64,000 bases of DNA from Bacillota bacterium (GTDB lineage: Bacteria; Bacillota; Sulfobacillia; Sulfobacillales; Sulfobacillaceae). This document shows, piece after piece, positions 3,492 to 4,165 of the stretch. Made by a program: the position numbers and the translations under genes. The DNA is taken from the NCBI GenBank assembly GCA_023511625.1, contig JAIMBD010000004.1, positions 1 through 64,000 of the forward strand, given 5' to 3'. The notes beneath the pieces were generated by a model. That model was not told where the DNA came from. It worked only from the letters and a program-made list of their open reading frames with translations, and searched no databases. Within the stretch, counting starts at the first letter, position 1. The number at the start of each line of letters is the position of its first letter.

Positions 3492-3737
3492 ATGAAGCCG
3501 ATCGTCGTCTACACCCAAGTCGGATGCGGCCCCTGCCAGGCCGAAAAGGCGTGGCTTGCGCAGCAGGGGATCCCCTTCGAGGAGCGCGACATCCACCAAA
3601 ATCCCGAGTGGATCCAGGAGTTGGTACGGCTGGGGTCGACCGGAACTCCGACCACCGTCATCGGTGAGGGTGCCGACCGCACGGTGATCCTCGGTTTCCA
3701 TCCGCAGCGGCTGGCCCAGGCCTTAGAGCTGCTGTAG
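3492..3737 (+). CDS. Glutaredoxin/NrdH-like thioredoxin-fold protein
   Basis: An 81-residue thioredoxin-fold protein. After a first beta strand comes the redox motif C-G-P-C (residues 12-15), then a helix, and the cis-Pro signature G-T-P-T-T-V near residue 53 with a following G-F that fits the NrdH/glutaredoxin-3 group. It is expected to act as a cytoplasmic dithiol oxidoreductase, reduced by thioredoxin reductase or glutathione-like thiols. A clear promoter is upstream. It converges on the SelW-like selenoprotein gene with a shared terminator region, placing two small redox proteins side by side. Confidence 0.85.
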   Translation: MKPIVVYTQVGCGPCQAEKAWLAQQGIPFEERDIHQNPEWIQELVRLGSTGTPTTVIGEGADRTVILGFHPQRLAQALELL

Positions 3738-3749
3738 CCGCCGGGCACG

Positions 3750-3800
3750 CAAAAACCGAAGGCGGGCCCAAGCCCGGTCGGCCTTGTGGCCCGCCTCGGC
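3750..3800 (-). terminator. Terminator between glutaredoxin and selW-like genes
   Basis: On the minus strand GGCGGGCC (3795-3788) pairs with the GGCCCGCC near 3768-3761, extended by partly matching CGAG/TTCG ends, and is followed by GTTTTTGCG at 3756-3750. It lies just past the selW stop. The stem can also form on the plus strand but lacks a T-run there. Confidence 0.65.
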
Positions 3801-3804
3801 GCAA

Positions 3805-4047
3805 TCAGACGCGGGCCTTAAGTCGATCCACCACTTCTCCAGGGTTGGGAAAACGGCCCGTCTCGGCCTTTGAGAAGATCGGTTGGCCGTCGAGCCGAAC
3901 TTGGAACACCCCTCCGCTCGAAGGGATGAGCACCGCTTTGTCCACTTGGTTCTTGAAAGCCGCCAGGACTTCCCCCACCACCCGGGTGGCGTGGTCCAGG
4001 TAGCCTCAGCTGGTGCAGTACTCAATCTCCACCAAAGGCTTGGCCAT
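3805..4047 (-). CDS. SelT/SelW/SelH (Rdx) family selenoprotein, UGA-encoded Sec at residue 14
   Basis: Reading through one in-frame TGA (4008-4006) gives an 80-residue protein that matches the Rdx family from end to end. It starts M-A-K-P-L-V-E-I-E-Y-C-T-S-U-G-Y, so the redox motif is C11-x-x-U14 with Sec exactly where the family has Cys or Sec. It then has V-L-I-P-S-S-G-G-V-F-Q-V, D-G-Q-P-I-F-S-K and the family hallmark G-R-F-P near the C-terminus. There is no other stop or frameshift. Rdx proteins are thioredoxin-like selenoproteins thought to act in thiol redox reactions. An AAAGGAG lies 12 nt upstream of the ATG. A hairpin suited to a bacterial SECIS follows the UGA. Insertion requires selA, selB, selC and selD elsewhere in the genome. 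Confidence 0.88.
3966..4008 (-). promoter_or_regulatory. Candidate bacterial SECIS element
   Basis: Immediately after the in-frame UGA (4008-4006) the RNA can fold with GGAC (3997-3994) on GUCC (3969-3966) and an upper stem GCCAC (3990-3986) on GUGGU (3981-3977). The apical loop CCGG begins about 20 nt after the UGA. The position and the G-containing loop fit known bSECIS layout, where SelB binds. The fold was drawn by hand and the coding constraint overlaps it, so the exact pairing is an inference. Confidence 0.6.
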
Positions 4048-4165
4048 GGGTGGGTTCCACTCCTTTCCCCTCAATCCTGAGTTCACCGGTTCGCAAACTA
4101 GGTTATCGCATGGTCCCCCGCAGTGCAACCGTCGCGGGATCTGGGACCGGCGAGGCGCCCTGGGG

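Follow-up and report, generated by a model that had tools for sequence, protein, structure and literature searches.

We analyzed a window of 64,000 nucleotides, the whole stretch of the Sulfobacillaceae contig shown above, and identified a selW-like gene (hereafter selW) on its minus strand (Table 1). The coordinates proposed for this gene in the first-pass annotation, which gave no strand, were correct. The product reads MAKPLVEIEYCTSUGYLDHATRVVGEVLAAFKNQVDKAVLIPSSGGVFQVRLDGQPIFSKAETGRFPNPGEVVDRLKARV, followed by a TGA stop codon, and the sole interruption of the frame is a TGA at residue 14, the second redox position of a C-T-S-U motif. The TGA therefore lies exactly at the selenocysteine (Sec) position of C-x-x-U, as the annotation had claimed, and an intact Rdx domain with its G-R-F-P motif continues downstream. 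Its further claim of an intact Rdx frame of 80 residues was borne out by the translation and by two family models, the matches to both of which span the TGA: Pfam Rdx (PF10262; E-value 2.6e-22, 79.2 bits, cut-off 22.6) and TIGR02174 CXXU_selWTH (67.9 bits, curated cut-off 34.2). The product thus belongs to the Rdx/TIGR02174 family, with full-domain scores that exceed the curated cut-offs, and it carries the N-terminal CxxC/CxxU motif of the family as C11-T-S-U14, in which C11 and residue 14 are invariant in an alignment of 19 sequences. With the NF041051 SelTWH_Campy equivalog model, the score was 82.4 bits, below the curated value of 88, and selW was not assigned to NF041051. The best match among solved structures was PDB 2fa8 (Atu0228; E-value 4.8e-14), in which the second Cys of the CxxC motif is aligned to the TGA codon. 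A plus-strand reading of the same interval was rejected because it gave no recognizable product. The expectation that ordinary gene callers would miss the gene was only partly confirmed: the frame is absent as one open reading frame from a mechanical six-frame list, but NCBI models exist (TIGR02174 and NF041051).

Table 1. Features at the selW locus (window positions).
Feature	Position	Strand	Basis
selW-like CDS of the Rdx family, 80 aa + TGA stop, with UGA-14 taken as Sec	3805–4047	-	Reading frame, Pfam Rdx, TIGR02174, homologues
In-frame TGA, inferred Sec codon (U14)	4006–4008	-	Same codon TGA in all class homologues
Cys codon C11 of the C-T-S-U redox motif	4015–4017	-	Invariant in 19-sequence alignment
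Putative bSECIS apical hairpin: stem 3989–3985/3979–3975, loop 3984–3980 (CGGGU)	3975–3989	-	Covariation, 37 sequences; loop G invariant
Possible ribosome-binding site (AAGGAG), 12 nt upstream of the ATG	4060–4065	-	Read from sequence
G+C-rich inverted repeat between selW and the glutaredoxin-like gene, possible shared terminator	3761–3798	.	Read from sequence

A glutaredoxin-like gene with a CGPC motif (window positions 3492–3737, plus strand) is convergent to selW. It resembles the UXX-star (seleno)protein models and scores below their cut-offs. None of the relatives examined had this gene next to selW, and ygjP and dnaE adjoin selW only in the same-genus genome; we therefore did not use gene neighborhood as evidence. 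When the whole window was searched with Rfam, only tRNAs reached the gathering score, and near selW a search at E-values of up to 10 gave sub-threshold matches only.

The genome that contains selW (2.59 Mb, 40 contigs, 97% complete) has a complete Sec-decoding trait. The tRNA-Sec gene (selC) is located at C26:16237–16328 with 72.9 bits against an Rfam gathering score of 47, and ARAGORN also calls it, as tRNA-SeC(tca). Matches above the curated cut-offs were obtained for selA (C16:59283, 566 bits), selB (C14:7054, 342 bits), and selD (C9:5570, 367 bits). The proposal that this organism decodes UGA as Sec, which the absence of sel genes would have contradicted, is thus supported. Two further genes of this genome carry an in-frame TGA at a known Sec position. 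One is selD itself, whose product reads SKSG-U-GCKLGPEDL at the usual site. A UGA-encoded SelD with S-[KN]-[SA]-G-U-GCK occurs at L046:1101 (contig C9 of this genome) and in 12 relatives, and in most of these selD genes the UGA is followed by a hairpin of another type, with a small loop (such as GGUCC..GGACC). The other is the catalytic gene of a formate dehydrogenase (FDH), about 7 kb from selC, with the TGA at the classical position (NNIDSCNRT-U-HAPSVVG) and after it a hairpin of 16 bp whose loop region contains GGUCUG. This Sec-type FDH (L015:11610–17343, minus strand, contig C26) seems to be split: its catalytic gene starts after the Fe4S4 domain (MDTRMSHRGRLTQPLVR...). The catalytic gene is followed by a NuoE/F-like fusion, then by a separate Fe-S-domain gene, which ends in the FDH Fe4S4 start (TICPYCGVGC...CVKGRFGFEF), and then by an FdhD-like gene.

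We next searched with the selW protein in a class-level set of 61 genomes, comprising this genome and relatives out to the level of class. A SelW homologue was found in 20 of the 61 genomes, and every one of the 20 genes contains exactly one in-frame TGA. In 19 of them the TGA occurs in C-[TN]-[SAE]-U-G, and the twentieth (L026) reads YCTR-U-G. In every TGA-bearing homologue that was read out, the TGA is the last codon of C-x-x-U. The gene selB was detected above its curated cut-off in all 20 SelW-bearing genomes, and no SelW was found in the 14 relatives of this set that lacked selB above the cut-off. Two SelW-bearing genomes, G001 and G036, yielded no selA, probably because their assemblies are fragmented. 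A second search, for Rdx in a phylum-wide sample of 249 genomes, gave 23 matches, 21 of which had one TGA. Of the two others, the match in G207 has Arg at this position and that in G235 is partial and does not cover the motif. When both searches were pooled, the TGA form was present in 39 distinct genomes (two, the selW genome itself, G000, and G047, were common to both). The phylum sample also contained a family (L078 and L080–L083) with a divergent Rdx/SelW domain and a C-V-E-U motif, fused to a longer C-terminal region; its open frames are 271–301 aa long and share a second conserved segment, LDIEFMYLD.... The Arg-bearing sequence of G207 (L079) is a long fusion of the same kind, with CVER where its relatives have the TGA, and may represent a loss of Sec.

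Purifying selection on the codons beyond the TGA is strong. In seven pairs of homologues, dN/dS was 0.02–0.21 over the 59–62 codons after the TGA, with dS near saturation in some pairs. This indicates that the region downstream of the UGA is constrained at the protein level, as expected if it is translated.

A hairpin suitable as a bSECIS element had been suspected between 3940 and 4010, and one was found at 3989–3975. It has the form CCACC-CGGGU-GGUGG, with a 5-bp stem and a 5-nt loop, and lies 21 nt after the UGA. The published bSECIS model comprises a loop of N1-G-[G/U]-N-N2 together with rules for spacing and stem length (PMC13188914), and the selW hairpin fits it in its spacing, in its 5-nt loop with G at position 2, and in its stem length. 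RNAalifold predicted precisely this stem with 20 sequences, and did so again with 37. In the 37 sequences, 95.1% of the stem cells pair, changes on both sides occur at four of the five pairs, and the stem has 32 compensatory cells, against a mean of 8.5 in shuffled alignments (0 of 500 shuffles were as high). Because related sequences can exceed such shuffles without any structure, the weight is carried by the compensatory changes themselves and by the comparison with registers slid by 1–3 columns, which contained nine compensatory cells or fewer. The loop G is invariant in 37 of 37 sequences, and the alignment columns G26 and T29, both in the loop, do not vary. Compensatory changes that alter amino acids include CCACC/GGTGG to CCGCC/GGCGG and to CCGTC/GACGG, and several change amino acids on both sides of the stem (e.g., L035 and L036). 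Since pairing is retained through such changes, coding constraint alone does not explain the stem. The stability of the hairpin in the window sequence is unremarkable (z = -1.15 for 51 nt). Against a bSECIS threshold of ≤ -7.5 kcal/mol, the minimum free energy (MFE) was -23.8 for 51 nt with the stem. A 19-nt fragment gave -8.5, but one of 37 nt adopted another fold. Across 19 homologues, the folding energy was hardly better than that of synonymous recodings (mean z = -0.38), and overall folding energy was therefore rejected as evidence for a SECIS. The case for the element consequently rests on covariation.

Several other readings of the locus were weighed. A Cys-type Rdx gene might have acquired the TGA by degradation or through a sequencing error; a single-base change from TGC or TGT would suffice, and Cys-type Rdx proteins are common elsewhere. 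The TGA is, however, retained at the corresponding codon in each of the 19 SelW homologues from the other genomes of the class, where TGC or TGT would have pointed to such an error, and matches from 39 genomes have a single in-frame TGA, which occupies one and the same codon in all that were read out. Its conservation thus refutes this explanation, to which the intact length, the dN/dS far below 1, and the complete Sec machinery are also opposed; we assign it virtually no probability. It is also very improbable that the UGA is read through in some other way, by near-cognate readthrough or by a recoding tRNA that reads UGA as Trp or Cys. Such decoding would preserve the frame and the downstream selection equally well, but the genome has a tRNA-Sec and the whole Sec pathway, and the TGA occupies the catalytic Sec/Cys site in CxxU. 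The terminal stop codon of selW is also a UGA. We count this against the Sec reading, but termination at that codon likewise indicates that UGA has not been globally reassigned.

The hairpin could instead be a by-product of encoding A-T-R-V-V, with SelB recognizing something else nearby. The mean MFE, hardly below that of synonymous recodings, would agree with this, whereas the stem preserved through compensatory substitutions that change amino acids, the loss of the signal in slid registers, and the invariant loop G do not; we regard a by-product as unlikely. The reading frame, the family, the conserved TGA, the selection downstream of it, the covariation of the hairpin, and the full set of Sec-decoding genes are all observed, and we consider it nearly certain that selW functions as a SelW-like selenoprotein gene of the Rdx family, with UGA-14 decoded as Sec.

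In bacteria, the insertion of Sec requires SelB, Sec-tRNA, and a hairpin adjacent to the UGA, and this scheme, combined with the present data, implies co-translational insertion of Sec at residue 14. SelB with Sec-tRNA(Sec) would be brought to the ribosome by the hairpin that closely follows UGA-14, this codon would be decoded as Sec, and translation would run on to the terminal UGA. The resulting thioredoxin-like protein of 80 residues would carry a C-x-x-U redox center that cycles between the selenenylsulfide and selenol-thiol forms, and may act as a small thiol/selenol oxidoreductase. The function of the family is unclear, and its CXXU motif suggests a redox function (PMC1088965).

The predicted product is a conventional SelW-like selenoprotein, of a family reported since 2005–2006 in Clostridia, Symbiobacterium, Geobacter, and Campylobacter. 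The Sargasso Sea data set includes SelW-like selenoproteins of bacteria (PMC1088965), and a 2006 survey lists SelW in Symbiobacterium thermophilum, Desulfotomaculum reducens, Alkaliphilus, and Geobacter sulfurreducens (PMC1794560). SelW selenoproteins are also known in Campylobacter (PMC4607533; PMC1242214), and SelW genes missed by annotation have already been noted in Epsilonproteobacteria (PMC4607533). The present gene shares with them the Rdx family, a UGA-encoded Sec in CxxU, a bSECIS just downstream, and a host with selABCD, as well as the dominance of the Sec form where Sec is decoded; it differs from them in its lineage. A limited literature search gave no description of SelW for the genomes nearest to that studied here. 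The Cys-type Rdx protein Atu0228 of Agrobacterium has the same domain, with its YCTQC aligned to YCTSU here, but its second redox residue is a Cys that is not UGA-encoded. In Sulfobacillus, Sec-containing cytoplasmic FDHs and an FDH beside NuoEFG-like genes have been reported (PMC4378227); the decoding trait is the same, and the genome studied here has a similar TGA-bearing FDH gene beside NuoE/F/G-like genes, although that enzyme belongs to a protein family other than that of the selW product. Within this genome, the loops also differ: the SelW elements of the class have CGKGU, in contrast to the GGUCUG-type loop after the Sec codon of FDH and the small loop of selD. Whether CGKGU is a lineage-specific SelW loop, so that one SelB in the lineage would read several loop classes, is a tentative and rather doubtful suggestion.

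These results add to this lineage a selenoprotein gene that is well supported and easily overlooked, together with its putative bSECIS. The addition is not surprising, but it helps annotation. In organisms that contain Sec, Cys homologues of SelW have been noted to be few or absent, and the suggestion has been made that SelW in bacteria originally had Sec (PMC1794560). The Sec form in all 20 SelW genes of the 61 related genomes fits this suggestion.
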